From: Bacteroidaceae bacterium
Lineage (GTDB): Bacteria > Bacteroidota > Bacteroidia > Bacteroidales > Bacteroidaceae
Reading direction: 5' to 3'
Length of the DNA: 51,420 bases
Assembly: GCA_017445925.1 (NCBI GenBank)
Contig: JAFSRW010000056.1
Span: forward strand, 1-51,420
Numbering within the stretch: the stretch's first letter is position 1; each line of letters starts with the position of its first letter. The notes under the pieces are model-generated. The model was not told the origin of the DNA. It searched no databases and was given only the letters and a program-made list of their open reading frames with translations. Positions 5,334 to 23,365 of the stretch are shown in pieces. The translations under genes and the position numbers were made by a program.

Positions 5334-6378
5334 ATTTAGTAATTTCCCCACACAGATTGCTATTCATCATCTCCTGAATCTTTTCCTTAGGCAGTTTGTG
5401 CCCCAATAGGAACATTAGTTTGGTAATAGCACATTCAGGTGTACTGTCGTAACCACTCACCACACCGGCCTCCAAAAGGGGCAGGCTGGTTTCATAAAGT
5501 CCCATGTGAACACTTCCGGCTTGACACTGGGTTATATTCACTAACAGAAGTCCTCGGCTGTTGGCATCACGCAGTTCCTCTTTGAACCATTTGAGTTGAG
5601 GAGCATTTCCTGCACCAAAGGTTCTGATAACCACCGCTTTCAGACCGGGAATATTCAGCACGGAATGTACTAGGCTGCGTTGAATGCCTGGGAAGAGCGT
5701 GAGCACCACCACGTTTGGATCTACCAGATAATGCGGTTTAAAGGGTTTGCTGGGGTCGGGCTTACGGATAGCTGTCTCGTTGAACTTTATCTGCATACCT
5801 GCCGTAGCCAAATCAGGATAATTGAACGAGCGGAAGGCATTGAACTGCTCAGCATTAATCTTGGTTGTTCTGTTGCCTCGCATGAGTTTCTCTTTAAAAT
5901 AAATGCAGACCTCTGGCACTATGGGAGTGCCGTCTTCATGCTGTGCAGCAGCAATCTCGATGGCTGTAATAAGATTCTCTTTTCCGTCGGTCCGTATTTT
6001 TCCTATGGGCAGTTGGGAGCCGGTGAGAATAACGGGTTTCCCCAGATTCTCTAACATAAAACTCAGTGCAGAAGCCGTATAGGCCATTGTGTCTGTTCCG
6101 TGCAGAATAACAAATCCGTCAAAAAGATTGTAATTGCCGTCTATTATCTTTACCAAACGCGACCAATGTTCCAATCCCATATCACTGGAGTCAATGGGAG
6201 GGTCGAAAGTGAAGGCATGTATTTTATAATCAAAGCGCTTCAGTTCTGGAACTTCATCCAAGAGAAGATGGAAGTTGAAATTCTCCAAAGCGCCCGTCTC
6301 TGCATTCTCTCTCATACCTATAGTACCTCCTGTATATATAAGGAGAACGCTGGGTCTATGTGTCTTGATAGTGCTCAT
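5332..6378 (-). CDS. ansA: Type I (cytoplasmic) L-asparaginase
   Basis: A 348-residue asparaginase that hydrolyses L-asparagine to aspartate and ammonia. The N-terminal YTGGTIGM (residues 15-22) carries the nucleophilic threonine, and HGTDTM (93-98) supplies the second Thr-Asp pair. No signal peptide is visible, which fits the type I cytoplasmic group. The stop lies at the edge of the heptamer tract before uvrA. A TAnnTTTG element 19 bp upstream of the ATG makes it divergent from the GHL10 gene, with an 85-bp shared promoter region. Confidence 0.93.
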   Translation of the reverse strand: MSTIKTHRPSVLLIYTGGTIGMRENAETGALENFNFHLLLDEVPELKRFDYKIHAFTFDPPIDSSDMGLEHWSRLVKIIDGNYNLFDGFVILHGTDTMAYTASALSFMLENLGKPVILTGSQLPIGKIRTDGKENLITAIEIAAAQHEDGTPIVPEVCIYFKEKLMRGNRTTKINAEQFNAFRSFNYPDLATAGMQIKFNETAIRKPDPSKPFKPHYLVDPNVVVLTLFPGIQRSLVHSVLNIPGLKAVVIRTFGAGNAPQLKWFKEELRDANSRGLLLVNITQCQAGSVHMGLYETSLPLLEAGVVSGYDSTPECAITKLMFLLGHKLPKEKIQEMMNSNLCGEITK

Positions 6379-6396
6379 AGGCTATAAAAATTTGGA

Positions 6397-6404
6397 CAAA
6401 AATA
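6397..6404 (-). promoter_or_regulatory. -7 element for ansA
   Basis: The minus strand reads TATTTTTG, a match to TAnnTTTG, 19 bp from the ansA ATG. It is back to back with the promoter at 6449. Confidence 0.6.
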
Positions 6405-6448
6405 TAAAAAAGAATGCGTATTATTAGGAGATGTATAGATTTTTTTTG

Positions 6449-6456
6449 TATTTTTG
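6449..6456 (+). promoter_or_regulatory. -7 element for the GHL10 gene
   Basis: TATTTTTG ends only 7 bases before the chosen ATG at 6464. The predicted transcription start is at or beside the start codon, suggesting a leaderless or near-leaderless mRNA. This also argues against the upstream in-frame ATG at 6431, which lies before the promoter. Confidence 0.6.
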
Positions 6457-6463
6457 TACCGAT

Positions 6464-7945
6464 ATGAAGAACAAATGGTTTATTCTGCTGCTTTTTATAG
6501 CAGTATCAGCAGTTGCTCAGAACCCCAAAAGGGAGTTCAGAGGAGCTTGGATTCAGAGTGTTAATGGACAGTTTCAGGGCATGGGGCGTGACCGCATGCA
6601 GCAGGTGTTGACAAGTCAACTGAATGATCTCCAGAAAGATGGTATTAACGCTATTTTCTTTCAAGTAAGATGTGAGGGTGATGCCTTGTATCCCAGCGAG
6701 ATAGAGCCTTGGAGCCGCTATCTGACTGGTCAGCAGGGTACACCTCCCAATCCTTATTGGGATCCTCTGCAATGGATGGTTGAGCAGTGCCATGCCAGAA
6801 ATATGGAACTGCATGCTTGGATAAACCCCTACCGTGCTAAAACCAAGGGTACTACGGCTTTGGCCAATACTCATGAGTATTTCCGTCATCCCAATCATTT
6901 CTTTGATTATGACGGACTGATGCTCTTCGACCCTGGTTATCCAGAGAACCGTAACTATATTTGTCAGGTGGCTTGTGATATTGTTCGTCGGTACGATGTT
7001 GATGGCATCCATATTGACGACTATTTCTATCCTTACCCTGTAGCCGGTGTTGCTATTCCTGATGATAACTCATACGCACTTTACGGTAAGGGAATGGACC
7101 GTTCTGAGTGGCGTAGGCAGAATGTGAACCAGTTTATTCAGCAGATGTGTCGTCAGATTAGAGAAGTAAAGCCGTGGGTTAAGTTTGGTGTATCTCCTTT
7201 CGGTATTTATCGTAACCAGGCGAACGACCCCAATGGAAGTGCCACCAATGGCTTGCAGAATTATGACGACCTTTATGCCGATGTGCTTGCCTGGGTTGAG
7301 AATGGCTGGGTTGATTACAATCTTCCTCAGCTTTATTGGGAAATTGGTCATAAGACGGCAGATTATGAGACATTGATTAACTGGTGGAGTGCTCATGCTG
7401 GTAAGCGTCCTCTTTATATAGGACAAGATGTACTTCGTACCGTAAAATCTCCCGACCCGCAGAATCCTGCCTCTCATCAGATGCCTCGTAAGTATATGCT
7501 TCAGCGCAGTTTGCCCGGTATCTTTGGCAGTTGTCAATGGTATGCTGCTGCATTATGCGAGAATCCAGGAAATTACCAAACGATGCTTCGTCAGGTTTAT
7601 CACAGCACACCAGCACTTCAGCCTAAGATGCCATGGATTGATAAAAAGGCTCCTGGTAAACCCAAAAAGGCGGCTATTGTGTGGACAGAGGATGGACCTC
7701 TCCTTTTTTGGACAGCCCCTAAGGCCAAGACCATTATGGATGAGGCTATACAGTATGTGGTATACCGTTTCAAAAAAGGCGAGAAGATAAACTTAGAGGA
7801 TCCTTCTCATATTTTTTGTTTTACCCGTGAGACGAACCTTCCTCTCACATTTCAAAACGGAAGTGCACCTTACGTTTACGTAATAACAGCTCTGGATCAT
7901 TTGCAAAACGAATCTAAGGGCGTAAAGAAGAAAGTTAAATTATGA
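6464..7945 (+). CDS. GHL10 (DUF187) family glycoside-hydrolase-like secreted protein
   Basis: From ATG 6464 the product is 493 residues and starts with a Sec signal peptide (KNKWFILLLFIAVSAVAQ). The body matches the GHL10/DUF187 TIM-barrel family: FRGAWIQSVNG at the start of the barrel, FFQVRCEGDALYPS, LHAWINPYRAK, and VDGIHIDDYFYPYP, which carries acidic residues in the usual catalytic strand. Members are thought to act on glycans, possibly peptidoglycan-related, but the substrate is not known from sequence. The last about 100 residues look like a C-terminal beta domain. It overlaps the DUF4738 lipoprotein gene by 4 bp (ATGA), so the two are probably translated together. Confidence 0.85.
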   Translation: MKNKWFILLLFIAVSAVAQNPKREFRGAWIQSVNGQFQGMGRDRMQQVLTSQLNDLQKDGINAIFFQVRCEGDALYPSEIEPWSRYLTGQQGTPPNPYWDPLQWMVEQCHARNMELHAWINPYRAKTKGTTALANTHEYFRHPNHFFDYDGLMLFDPGYPENRNYICQVACDIVRRYDVDGIHIDDYFYPYPVAGVAIPDDNSYALYGKGMDRSEWRRQNVNQFIQQMCRQIREVKPWVKFGVSPFGIYRNQANDPNGSATNGLQNYDDLYADVLAWVENGWVDYNLPQLYWEIGHKTADYETLINWWSAHAGKRPLYIGQDVLRTVKSPDPQNPASHQMPRKYMLQRSLPGIFGSCQWYAAALCENPGNYQTMLRQVYHSTPALQPKMPWIDKKAPGKPKKAAIVWTEDGPLLFWTAPKAKTIMDEAIQYVVYRFKKGEKINLEDPSHIFCFTRETNLPLTFQNGSAPYVYVITALDHLQNESKGVKKKVKL

Positions 7946-8484
7946 AAACAAGAAAACTATTATATTTCAGTCTCTTGATATCTGTTTTCTGCTCTTGTGG
8001 CGACAATAAGGAGCAGAAAAATGGGCAGAATGCAATAACTACAGAACAGCAGGCTAGTGTGCACAGAATGAAGGATTATGACCTTACTGACAGTGTAACA
8101 ATGGGAAGCCATTTATTTATCTACACCATTCATCGTGAAGCAGATGATTCGCTGAAAGCTGTGGTCGATGAGAATGGCGATAAGTATGTGGATAATTATT
8201 ACGACCTAACTGTCCTCCGTGATGGTGTAAATTTCTTCCGTCGCCGTTTTACCAAACTTTCTTTTGGCTCTCAGTTGGATGAAAGTTTCCGCAAGAACGG
8301 AATCCTTGATGGTTTCCGATTTATGTCGGTAAAGGAGGGGAAACTTACCTTTGGTGTTTGCGTAAGTTTCCCAGAGAGTGATATGTCAGAGCCCTTCGTG
8401 CTGACTATCGGTTCAGACGGAAGTTTTACCTTGGAGCCTGACACAACTCCAGATATAGAGGAAATAGAAGATACGTCAGTCTGA
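7942..8484 (+). CDS. DUF4738 family lipoprotein
   Basis: A 180-residue protein with an N-terminal lipobox region (SLLISVFCSC, Cys at about residue 18-20), so probably a lipoprotein. The rest has the features of the DUF4738 family of Bacteroidales, whose function is unknown: a conserved YDLTVLRDGVNFFRRRFTK core and an acidic tail. It is coupled by a 4-bp overlap to the GHL10 gene, so a joint role in envelope glycan processing is a reasonable guess. Its 3' end overlaps the convergent HAD gene by 9 bp. Confidence 0.8.
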   Translation: MKTRKLLYFSLLISVFCSCGDNKEQKNGQNAITTEQQASVHRMKDYDLTDSVTMGSHLFIYTIHREADDSLKAVVDENGDKYVDNYYDLTVLRDGVNFFRRRFTKLSFGSQLDESFRKNGILDGFRFMSVKEGKLTFGVCVSFPESDMSEPFVLTIGSDGSFTLEPDTTPDIEEIEDTSV

Positions 8485-20771: not shown

Positions 20772-22793
20772 ATGAAAAAGAAAATATTCCTCATTCTTGT
20801 AATGGCTCTAATGACTGTTACTTCAGCTTTTGCCCAAACTCGTGAGTTGCAAATCTACAAAGGCGGTAGCCTAATCCAATCATTCCCCGTCGGAAACATT
20901 GATAGTATCAAAGTGGGATATGCGTTCAATGCACCTGGCAATGTCACTGCACGATTATCCAACAAAAGCATCGTTGTTACATGGTCAACTGTAAGTGGTG
21001 CGCGGTCTTATCAGCTTTACCGTAGTGGAGACAACAAGAATTTTACCCTCTTAGCAGGAAATCTTACTACTACGACTTATACAGATAACTCTCCGCTTAA
21101 GGGGACCAACTATTATAAGGTAAAAGCCATAGGGGTGGGAAAAGAAAGTGCAATGAGTGAAAGCACTGCTACAGCTACTTTGCCTGGCTCTGGAATGGAA
21201 AGTGGATTATACCTCGGTGTTATGGGCTTCAACCAAGTTCTCACTACCAAGCCCATCTCTATCCTCAAAGCAGAAACAAAATCCTCTTATGACACCTTCA
21301 TTGATGCCATGACGATGAAGAACGGCACCATACTCTGTTATTCTGTGGACCAAGCTATCAATGCCTTACAAAAGGCTACCCTTCCTGATGATATTTTCAA
21401 TGTGGCTATTGTAACCTTCACCGATGGACTTGACCAAGGCTCCCTGATGATGGATGACCGTTTCGAAAACGATGATGATTTCCTTGCCGCTATCAAAAAA
21501 AGAATTACGGAAGAAACGGTTGCAGGTCAGTCCATCTTTGCTTATTCCATCGGTCTGAGAGGGCGCGACATTACTTCTGCTTCTGATATTGCCAAATTTC
21601 AATCTACGCTGAAACAACTTGCTTCAACTAATGCCAATGCCAAAGAAGTTACGAGTATGGCAGAGGTAAATGCCAAATTTCAAGAGATTGCAGAACAACT
21701 GAACTCCACCAGCTATCTTCAAACTATTTCACTGAAGATTCCTGGTCTATCCAATGGTACGCGTGTCCGCTTCACCTTTGACAATGTAACAGCGGCTGCC
21801 AATTCAAAAGTATATATTGAGGGAACCTTCAATCTTCGTACCCGTTCACTGACAGATGTGGTGTATAAAGGTATGACCTCTACTTCTGGAACAACTATAA
21901 ATGGCACTACAGAAGGTATTTTTATCACATTTAAGTTTGATGGGATTCGTACGGAGAATGGCAAATTGCTTTCCAAAGAGTACATTGATGAGTGGTATCT
22001 GACCAGTTCCAATTCATGGCAAATCAACTCCGAGTTTGACAAATATGAAAACTCAGATGTGATTAATGAGAAAAAATCTGCCGCCATCATGCTGGTGCTT
22101 GACTGTTCCAGCTCACTTGACAAACAGTTCTCCACGATGCAGGCAAATGCCAAGTCATTTGTAAACACACTTTTTCAATCAACTAAGGATGCCGATACAA
22201 ATGGCCATGAGTATGTAGATTTAGGCTTGCCGAGTGGTACGTTGTGGGCAACCTGTAATGTTGGTGCCAGCAAACCTGAGGAGTACGGTGACTATTTTGC
22301 TTGGGGTGAGACAAAATCAAAAAGCAATTACTCTTGGAGTACATACAAATACTGCAAAGGCTCCAGTACCACCATGACAAAGTATTGCACAAGCAGCGAT
22401 TACGGAACTGTAGATAACAAGACAGAACTTGAGCCTGCCGACGATGCAGCAACAGCCAATTGGGGTTCGGGCTGGCAGATGCCGAGTCTGGCTCAGCAAC
22501 AAGAACTAATCAACACAAGTTATACAACAACAACATGGACCACACAAAATGGTGTATATGGCCGTAAGATAATAAGCAAGAGCAACGGCAATAGCATTTT
22601 CTTGCCTGCTGCAGGCTATCGCAGCGATACGTCTCTCAACAACGCTGGCTCGTACGGCCACTATTGGTCGCGTTCGCTCGATGCGAGCGATTCTCGCTTC
22701 GGGTACTACCTGGGCTTCTTTTCTAGTGATATCCGCGCGAGCTACGGCCGCCGCTACAATGGTCTGAGTGTCCGTCCTGTGCGTGTTCGGTAA
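20772..22793 (+). CDS. Secreted FN3 / vWA-like / FISUMP protein, candidate DGR target
   Basis: 673 residues. Signal peptide 1-22 (ends SAFAQ); FNVGNIDSIKV-like leader strand (about 38-48); fibronectin III domain (about 52-137, APGNVTARLSNKSIVVTW to TATATL); a vWA-like region (about 145-320) with TFTDGLDQG where the metal-site loop is expected but GFNQ instead of DxSxS in the first strand; a beta segment (about 320-420); then AAIMLVLDCSSSLD (437-450), a clear DxSxS MIDAS strand, directly followed by a FISUMP domain (about 479-673: EYVDLGLPSGTLWATCNVGA, YFAWGE, WQMPSLAQQQEL, LPAAGYR, GLSVRPVRV). FISUMP is a C-type-lectin-like fold found in large paralogous families of Fibrobacter and Bacteroidales. 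Its end has the composition of a DGR variable region. Probable surface binding protein; probably cotranscribed with the upstream T9SS-tail gene. Confidence 0.85.
   Translation: MKKKIFLILVMALMTVTSAFAQTRELQIYKGGSLIQSFPVGNIDSIKVGYAFNAPGNVTARLSNKSIVVTWSTVSGARSYQLYRSGDNKNFTLLAGNLTTTTYTDNSPLKGTNYYKVKAIGVGKESAMSESTATATLPGSGMESGLYLGVMGFNQVLTTKPISILKAETKSSYDTFIDAMTMKNGTILCYSVDQAINALQKATLPDDIFNVAIVTFTDGLDQGSLMMDDRFENDDDFLAAIKKRITEETVAGQSIFAYSIGLRGRDITSASDIAKFQSTLKQLASTNANAKEVTSMAEVNAKFQEIAEQLNSTSYLQTISLKIPGLSNGTRVRFTFDNVTAAANSKVYIEGTFNLRTRSLTDVVYKGMTSTSGTTINGTTEGIFITFKFDGIRTENGKLLSKEYIDEWYLTSSNSWQINSEFDKYENSDVINEKKSAAIMLVLDCSSSLDKQFSTMQANAKSFVNTLFQSTKDADTNGHEYVDLGLPSGTLWATCNVGASKPEEYGDYFAWGETKSKSNYSWSTYKYCKGSSTTMTKYCTSSDYGTVDNKTELEPADDAATANWGSGWQMPSLAQQQELINTSYTTTTWTTQNGVYGRKIISKSNGNSIFLPAAGYRSDTSLNNAGSYGHYWSRSLDASDSRFGYYLGFFSSDIRASYGRRYNGLSVRPVRVR
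22640..22792 (+). other. Candidate DGR variable region (VR) at the 3' end of the FISUMP gene
   Basis: The segment from G626-S627 to the terminal VRPVRVR is visibly more GC-rich than the rest of the gene. Between N624 (AAC) and N663 (AAT) there is no Asn codon. The sites aligned with the Asn-rich stretch of ordinary FISUMP proteins are CAC, GAT, AGC, GAT, CGC, TTC, TAC, GGC, TTT, AGT, GAT, CGC, AGC, TAC, GGC and CGC: all NNC or NNT. GCG occurs twice where ACG would fit. This is what adenine-directed mutagenesis of a template rich in AAC/AAT codons leaves. No matching template repeat or reverse transcriptase is in the window. Confidence 0.6.
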
Positions 22794-23001
22794 TGAATCA
22801 TTAAAAAACATAACGAACTTTTATTTCAGGTAAATCTTATATTACGATAAATAACGCGATTATTGTGCAAGAAGCCCTTATTCATCAGGGATATCAACCA
22901 TGTGCTGAACTTTCTTCAATGACGTTGGTTGTAGGATAGCTGTTAAGAGACTTCAAAGAGACAATTTCGTTTTTTGTCTTATTCATTTGTGGGGAGTAAG
23001 A

Positions 23002-23050
23002 AGCCCGAATTCGAGGAGTATTTAGGCTTCAAACTCCTTGAATTCAGGCT
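23002..23050. repeat. 18-bp inverted repeat (hairpin)
   Basis: AGCCCGAATTCGAGGAGT (23002-23019) pairs with ACTCCTTGAATTCAGGCT (23033-23050) with two mismatches that G-U pairing could cover. There is no T-run after it, so a simple intrinsic terminator is doubtful. Confidence 0.8.
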
Positions 23051-23093
23051 CCAAACTCACACTAAATGACCTTTGATTTATTCCCCTTATCTT

Positions 23094-23212
23094 AACGATT
23101 CATTCAGATATGGGGAACGATTCATTCAGATAATCCCTTATCCCTATAAAGTCCTATCTGAATGAGTCGTGGAGATAGGCTGAATGCCCCATGGAGATTA
23201 TCTGAATGAAGC
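23094..23212. repeat. Cluster of direct and inverted 15-17 bp repeats
   Basis: AACGATTCATTCAGATA occurs at 23094-23110 and 23116-23132. Inverted partners TATCTGAATGAGTCGT (23155-23170) and TTATCTGAATGAAGC (23198-23212) follow, with a degenerate third (GATAGGCTGAATGCC, about 23174). Two nested hairpins or a cloverleaf are possible. Confidence 0.8.
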
Positions 23213-23365
23213 AAAGGTGACATTGCCAATTTTGCAGCTTATTTGTGATAATTATCTAAGTTAATTCCGAGCAAAAAGTAGCTTAAATAAAAATTTTTCT
23301 AGGTTGATTTTTCCTCCTCCAGAATAAAGCCGAATTTGTGTCTGTGACTTTTTTTGAAAGATTTG

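Follow-up and report, generated by a model that had tools for sequence, protein, structure and literature searches.

A FISUMP-like gene ending in a probable, most likely orphaned, retroelement-type variable region in a Bacteroidaceae genome

The window, meaning the whole 51,420-nucleotide contig analysed here, carries a gene whose last codons resemble the variable region (VR) of a diversity-generating retroelement (DGR). In the list below, G154 is a genome from another genus of the same family, whose template repeat (TR) served as the reference, and L015 is the stretch around a second FISUMP-like locus (C62) of the window's own genome.

20772..22793, + strand: target gene, encoding a 673-aa protein (ORF translation)
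20838..22187, + strand: stalk, related to proteins of 8 further genus genomes
22191..22790, + strand: FISUMP-like (Fib_succ_major-related) domain, the C-terminal 200 aa
22596..22790, + strand: DGR-type VR, aligning without gaps to 62 codons of the G154 template (over 22596-22781)
22623..22760, + strand: 19 codons facing template AAC (618, 623, 624, 628, 630, 637, 639, 640, 643, 646, 648, 650, 653, 657-660, 662 and 663), of which 16 are changed and 19/19 end in C/T
22994-23057 and 23230-23327, + strand: intergenic stretches shared with L015 (3133-3070 and 3069-2973, respectively)

The N-terminus of the window protein is signal-peptide-like by eye and is followed by an Ig/fn3-like stretch, and a vWA-like stalk lies ahead of the C-terminal FISUMP-like domain. 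The protein itself (P0001) gave no vWA match; sub-threshold VWA/VWA_2 matches were found in its orthologs from G026, G018, G106 and G111. The FISUMP model TIGR02145 scored 16.6 bits over residues 563-670, below its curated cut-off of 41.65, and we therefore use the name FISUMP-like. The same model gave 16.5 bits for the DGR target of G154 and 28.6 bits for that of G063, a genome of the window's genus. A structural model of the domain, based on 33 aligned sequences, had a mean pLDDT of 92.8 and a pTM of 0.89 (range over five models, pLDDT 55.3-92.8). When this model was compared with the PDB by Foldseek, 458 matches were obtained at E <= 10 and none at E <= 0.001; the C-terminal domain of Legionella Lcl (8q4e) ranked sixth (E 0.74, probability 0.35, 43 columns, rmsd 2.8). 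A sequence search of the PDB with the domain returned three matches at E 0.15 or worse, and Pfam Lcl_C gave sub-threshold matches to both the target and the template peptide of G154. These comparisons did not confirm the C-type lectin-like fold that an earlier sequence-only reading had invoked. By analogy with known DGR targets, the domain may be displayed and bind ligands.

We next describe the codons of the 3′ end. Beyond residue 560, asparagine occurs at positions 563, 581, 593, 605, 607, 623, 624 and 663. A sequence-only reading had singled out the interval between Asn 624 and Asn 663 as devoid of AAY codons, and we found that codons 625-662 indeed contain none, with 30 of the 38 ending in C or T. 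The segment had also been described as richer in GC than the gene around it and as lying at the gene's 3′ end. Both descriptions hold: the GC fraction is 0.588 at 22640-22792 versus 0.426 at 20772-22600, with a maximum of 0.523 among all 153-nt stretches upstream within the gene, and the diversified segment occupies 22596-22790 of a gene ending at 22793. The residues LPAAGYR, however, are not the ordinary flank they had been taken for. In G154 and G063 the identity of TR and VR begins at about FLPAAG or PAAG, which places the start of the window repeat at about 22596, upstream of the segment first proposed, and LPAAGYR within it. Codon 618 (AGC), likewise upstream of that segment, has changed as well. 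G154 and G063 also show where the identity of TR and VR stops on the 3′ side, and by comparison with G154 the repeat homology of the window extends past 22781 to about 22790, just short of the stop codon. As for two GCG codons supposed to stand opposite ACG, codon 638 does face ACG in the G154 template, but codon 656 faces AGG.

Since neither the genome of the window nor its genus supplied a fitting template, the adenine bias was measured against a template from another genus of the family, the best one found, which lies upstream of a DGR reverse transcriptase (RT) in G154. An exact pattern scan of genome contigs had given 36 stretches; an automatic rule kept 15 of them as templates, and the start of an RT was visible by eye in at least nine. 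A scan of 399 genomes of the family, allowing up to two mismatches, gave five places, with an exact match in one, G154. The records G154:C15 and L103 carry the same template on 45,787 bp and were taken as one contig, which is also CAMOWU010000015.1. This template encodes LFLPAAGYRNDTSLNNAGSNGNYWSRSLNTNNSDNAYNLNFNSGNIIRNNNNRNNGQSVRPV, in frame with the RT.

Against this other-genus template, the differences of the window VR are concentrated at adenines: 29/53 template A's differ, compared with 24/133 other bases, without gaps, and 16 of the 24 non-A differences sit at third positions. At codon positions 1 and 2 alone, 27/51 template A's differ versus 8/73 other bases (p = 3.9e-7). Sliding the window VR by 1-3 codons abolished the contrast, and swapping the roles of template and VR gave 3/27 differences at window A's versus 50/159 elsewhere. 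Sixteen of the 19 AAC-facing codons no longer encode asparagine; all 19 end in C/T, where codons 1-560 set a background of 0.600 (p = 6e-5). In 4 of the 16 altered codons the third base is also changed, from C to T. Furthermore, the VR framework departs from the template at 16/60 third positions, whereas those of the rest of the domain differ from the G154 target at 75/121 (p = 8e-6). Such a low difference is expected from recent copying of a related template. The spectrum at changed A's (G15/T11/C3) is similar to that of six same-genome VRs, namely five of the eight compared G063 copies and that of G154 (G72/T47/C7, p = 0.62). The bias at positions 1 and 2 against the G154 template also reached p < 0.001 in 26 of 30 genus copies, drifted ones included. 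The adenine sites fall in amino-acid-variable codons, so that plainly drifted copies score as A-biased as well. We therefore discarded these p-values as proof on their own and regard the third-base and framework results as the stronger evidence.

The genome of the window (G000) is a 3.32 Mb assembly of 100 contigs that is 83.72% complete. A tblastn search with the G154 RT (E <= 0.1) returned 0 matches in the window, in agreement with the earlier remark that no RT lies nearby. The same remark had pointed to a template beside a DGR-type RT elsewhere in the genome. Neither part of a complete cassette, an RT of this type or a same-genome TR, was found in the 84%-complete assembly: DNA and pattern searches gave no template repeat, and no P0002-type RT was matched. 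Because the assembly is 84% complete, the absence of the RT is unproven. Of 13 matches to the VR DNA in G000, those below E 0.1 were the window itself and C62, and the same two places were returned when the complete domain served as a protein query (E <= 1). Compared with its eight best templates, the C62 copy has 2-3 gaps and differs at 35-38% of non-A sites, and is thus a drifted copy or the copy of another template. About 160 nt of intergenic sequence, 84-86% identical, lies downstream of both FISUMP-like loci and is absent from the other G000 stretches compared. Clustered short repeats were also seen by eye downstream of each, of the ATTCATTCAGATA type at about 23098-23210 of the window and of the GGCTCGAGCC type at about 2870-2800 of L015.

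Several candidate sources were examined and rejected. The single RVT_1 match of G000 at E <= 1, on contig C24, is part of a prophage-like DGR with a TR that encodes a different, unrelated sequence. In that element (L016, 6330-8252), the VR (about 6330-6460) is located where a phage-like protein of 2100 aa ends, the TR lies at about 6640-6765 and the RT at 6903-8252 (phrog_1423). Three sub-threshold bAvd (PF22296) matches in G000, none above the curated score, were read as small S23/IVP-like proteins rather than remnants of a cassette, and the surrounding stretches examined held no FISUMP-like template or RT. A YWSRSL-type template pattern with at most one mismatch was found in 0/139 genus genomes, G000 included; a slightly longer pattern with up to three mismatches gave four places in 3 genus genomes, each with 2-3 mismatches, which we read as VRs. 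IMG/VR had 0 matches to the exact pattern. Phage and plasmid collections yielded three records, each covering 12-13% of the VR query, short and chance-like.

FISUMP-type sets of TR, VR and RT that look recently active do occur in the genus and family. By profile, FISUMP-like templates beside RTs were found in the genus genomes G063, G010, G030 and G114, with a weak case in G003 and a cut-short form in G065. In G063 there are a TR, an RT and VRs spread over several contigs. Twelve matches were found there, of which one is the template and three were left out. The eight VR copies compared differ from their own TR at 20, 20, 30, 25, 17, 21, 17 and 35 of 51 A's and, in the same order, at 0, 44, 44, 5, 0, 4, 15 and 46 of 126 other bases. 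Thus the RT-adjacent VR has 20/51 A and 0/126 non-A changes, and a VR on another contig has 17/51 and 0/126. Same-genome pairs elsewhere gave 26/53 A and 2/133 non-A differences (G154), 14/42 and 1/123 (G030), and 33/51 and 27/123 with three gaps (G114). As to accessory genes, a bAvd-like gene lies beside FISUMP-type DGR RTs in L158 and, by eye, in L174 and L175 (the G063 protein matches PF22296 at 35.3 bits, below cut-off). A second small gene is present in FISUMP-type cassettes; its G063 product bears a weak resemblance to MutS domain I (PF01624, E 0.013). A script also identified adenine-type TR/VR pairs beside other RTs in G024, G026, G001 and G031 (L064, L065, L076 and L077).

The domain is far more widespread in the genus than this RT. 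At E <= 1e-10, the FISUMP-like domain was found in 107/139 genus genomes, that of the window included, with at least 24 matches in the richest. The G154-type RT was found in 12/139 at E <= 1e-20, all 12 among the domain-bearing genomes, so that 95 of the 107 had no match at this threshold. Among the 18 genomes that are at least 90% complete, one had the RT type and 13 the domain. Any RVT_1 match (E <= 0.001) was found in 42/139 genus genomes, and none was found in G016, G023, G052 or G128, despite at least 9 to at least 24 domain matches in each. Where traces of this RT were found, some are visibly decayed: in G065 the cut-short template continues directly into a later part of the RT, in G114 the template is followed by the last quarter of the RT only, and in G109 the RT is frameshifted and a VR-like stretch occupies the place of the template. 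In G050 the RT directly follows the VR of a target, and the 18 kb examined contain no other FISUMP-like stretch, an arrangement that VR-TR recombination could explain.

At least four FISUMP-like domains are joined in single ORFs of 1057 aa (G023) and 861 aa (G052). The domains of these arrays (G023:C2, L078; G052:C142, L089) have VRs of their own, mostly internal rather than at the 3′ end of the gene. When 38 distinct copies, drawn from 41 domains with one further domain left out, were aligned by codon, they showed variable positions 1 and 2 and a third position that is mostly C/T, in many shared columns. By eye, 6 of 9 G023 copies have a common framework with column-fixed NNC/NNT codons. When within-genome pairs were filtered at <15% non-A difference, 13/36 passed in G023, 3/21 in G049, 2/105 in G052 and 0/3 in G128, which indicates that most copies there were not recently templated. 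In the 13 passing pairs of G023, A-sites differ by 42-62% and other sites by 6-14.5%, and third positions differ by 3-15% in the VR versus 25-42% upstream.

In a collection with one genome per species, we found eight orthologous VRs in four genome pairs, which differ by 0-4%. The VRs differ at 2/219, 0/219 and 0/234 in G035/G104 (surroundings 96.7% identical over 8.65 kb), 2/219 and 7/210 in G057/G093 (95.6%), 0/216 in G026/G030 (99.3%), and 0/231 and 8/210 in G091/G084 (96.2%). These orthologous VRs are frozen, differing no more than their surroundings. The G026/G030 pair is not RT-less, since G030 has the RT type and G026 another DGR, and its 99.3% identity may reflect transfer or contamination. 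In the more distant pair G035/G036 (85.3% identical), the VRs differ at 57/216, 33/219 and 27/234, the first of these exceeding the surroundings.

The stalk was found with different C-terminal domains. Its closest relative, 51% identical and encoded in G026, has an FGE-sulfatase domain at its C-terminus (PF03781, E = 3e-48) and adjoins a DGR, whose TR/VR pair differs at 17/40 A's and 5/97 other bases over 137 positions, with all five non-A differences at the two ends. Relatives in G018 (E = 1e-42), G106 (4e-45), G011 (2e-46) and G027 (4e-8) also end in FGE-sulfatase domains, and the relative in G050:C52 has a C-terminal FISUMP-like domain; in the stretches examined of two relatives in G111 and one in G092, neither domain was found. 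That one stalk bears different DGR-target domains across species supports the window gene as a carrier of a DGR target.

Together, these results indicate that the 3′ end of the window gene is very probably a VR written by a DGR. The proposal that the gene is a DGR target has gained from a same-framework template beside a DGR-type RT in another genus and from adenine-limited TR/VR pairs within its own genus. A DGR RT would have copied the RNA of a FISUMP-type template with misincorporation opposite adenines, and through mutagenic retrohoming the cDNA would have taken the place of the final ~190 bp of this gene, altering at least 16 residues of the C-terminal domain on the vWA-like stalk. The cassette would have acted in the window's lineage and would since have been lost, or would lie in the unassembled portion of the genome; the diversified domain would remain as an orphan. 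A history without any retroelement, in which ordinary point mutations were positively selected on a binding face, is a very improbable substitute. The variable codons are likely surface sites, and drifted copies differ there too, but selection on amino acids leaves third bases free, yet 19/19 AAC-facing codons end in C/T. The third positions of the framework are, moreover, more conserved than those of the rest of the domain, and the genus has same-genome TR/VR pairs with 0/126 non-A differences. The third-base evidence thus strongly disfavours plain positive selection.

Whether the gene is still being rewritten is a separate matter. A living DGR in the missing 16% of the genome or on an unbinned element may diversify it in trans, as would suit the gap-free fit of the window framework to a template, the 83.72% completeness of the assembly and the single G063 template that fits VRs on several contigs. 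We consider this rather unlikely: the RT type is found in 12/139 genomes (1/18 at >=90% completeness) against 107/139 (13/18) for the domain, the YWSRSL pattern in 0/139 and the exact pattern in none of IMG/VR, and the phage and plasmid matches look like chance. Distinctly less probable is that the gene or its end was acquired already diversified from a DGR-bearing relative, the DGR never having worked in this lineage. Near-identical FISUMP-like loci in different genomes (G035/G104, 96.7% over 8.65 kb) and the differing C-terminal domains on the stalk fit such transfer, but among the genus matches listed the closest other domains share 75-77% identity and the best stalk relative 51%, so that no recent donor is seen. 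An orphaned VR, its cassette lost or unassembled, is most likely. The sequence-only reading had offered action in trans and a fossil side by side; both parts of that suggestion still stand, and the failure to find a TR or matching RT in the 84%-complete assembly, the 95/107 domain-bearing genomes without a match to this RT at E <= 1e-20 and the frozen orthologous VRs favour the orphan or fossil over activity in trans. More tentatively, DGRs may serve this Bacteroidales genus as short-lived factories of repertoires: a DGR would enter a genome, diversify many FISUMP-like domains in trans and be lost, and the repertoire would be frozen, duplicated into tandem arrays that join several differently written VRs in a single protein, and swapped with FGE-sulfatase domains on the stalk.

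Related systems are described in the literature. Fib_succ_major and DUF1566 domains are reported as DGR targets in human microbiomes (PMC4159848). Like those described there, the window VR has adenine-directed differences and lies at the 3′ terminus of a gene encoding such a domain; unlike them, no RT or TR of the type was found in its assembly, and the domain is below the FISUMP cut-off. In partial DGRs of DUSEL4 Nanoarchaeota, an adenine-mutated VR without an RT was read as a fossil or as remotely diversified (PMC4372165), which resembles the target gene and VR without RT of the window. That account concerns two loci of one genome, whereas here the family is bacterial and genus-wide, with at least 24 matches in the richest genome and multi-domain ORFs. 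Cyanobacteria have remote variable proteins together with a degraded cassette (PMC7517822). As here, variable paralogs lie away from the RT and a C-terminal variable domain is carried on differing N-terminal parts; the cyanobacterial proteins, however, are tied by TR identity to a DGR of the same genome, whereas the best template for the window is in another genus. The G154 DGR is like the window in its VR framework, which aligns gap-free, and in its mutation spectrum, and differs in that its target is closely followed by the TR and RT and has another N-terminal part (DUF4114 and sub-threshold LruC). Broken RTs and multiple VRs (PMC3521204) and targets possibly diversified in trans (PMC10907252) have also been described, and a large RT-anchored survey states that remote targets would escape detection (PMC8144416). 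FISUMP-like targets and RT-less VRs are already published, and the genus-wide scale seems new; no description of the genus-wide pattern was found in the literature examined, a limited set.

The number of domains without the fitting RT, their arrangement in tandem and the swapping of target domains on a single stalk deserve the attention of specialists. With 95/107 domain-bearing genomes showing no match to the fitting RT, retroelement-diversified domains may be much commoner than counts of DGRs suggest. If the repertoire-factory reading is true, RT-anchored surveys would miss nearly all diversified domains. Near-identical VRs across species make it testable whether a repertoire is kept without its generator, and the non-A difference from the template offers a rough clock since the last rewriting, the G063 copies spanning 0 to 46/126. 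Two G063 VRs on different contigs (L158 11101 and L164 10922) have the same ~50 nt past the stop codon, which may be an element acting in cis in retrohoming or may stem from duplication of a gene end.
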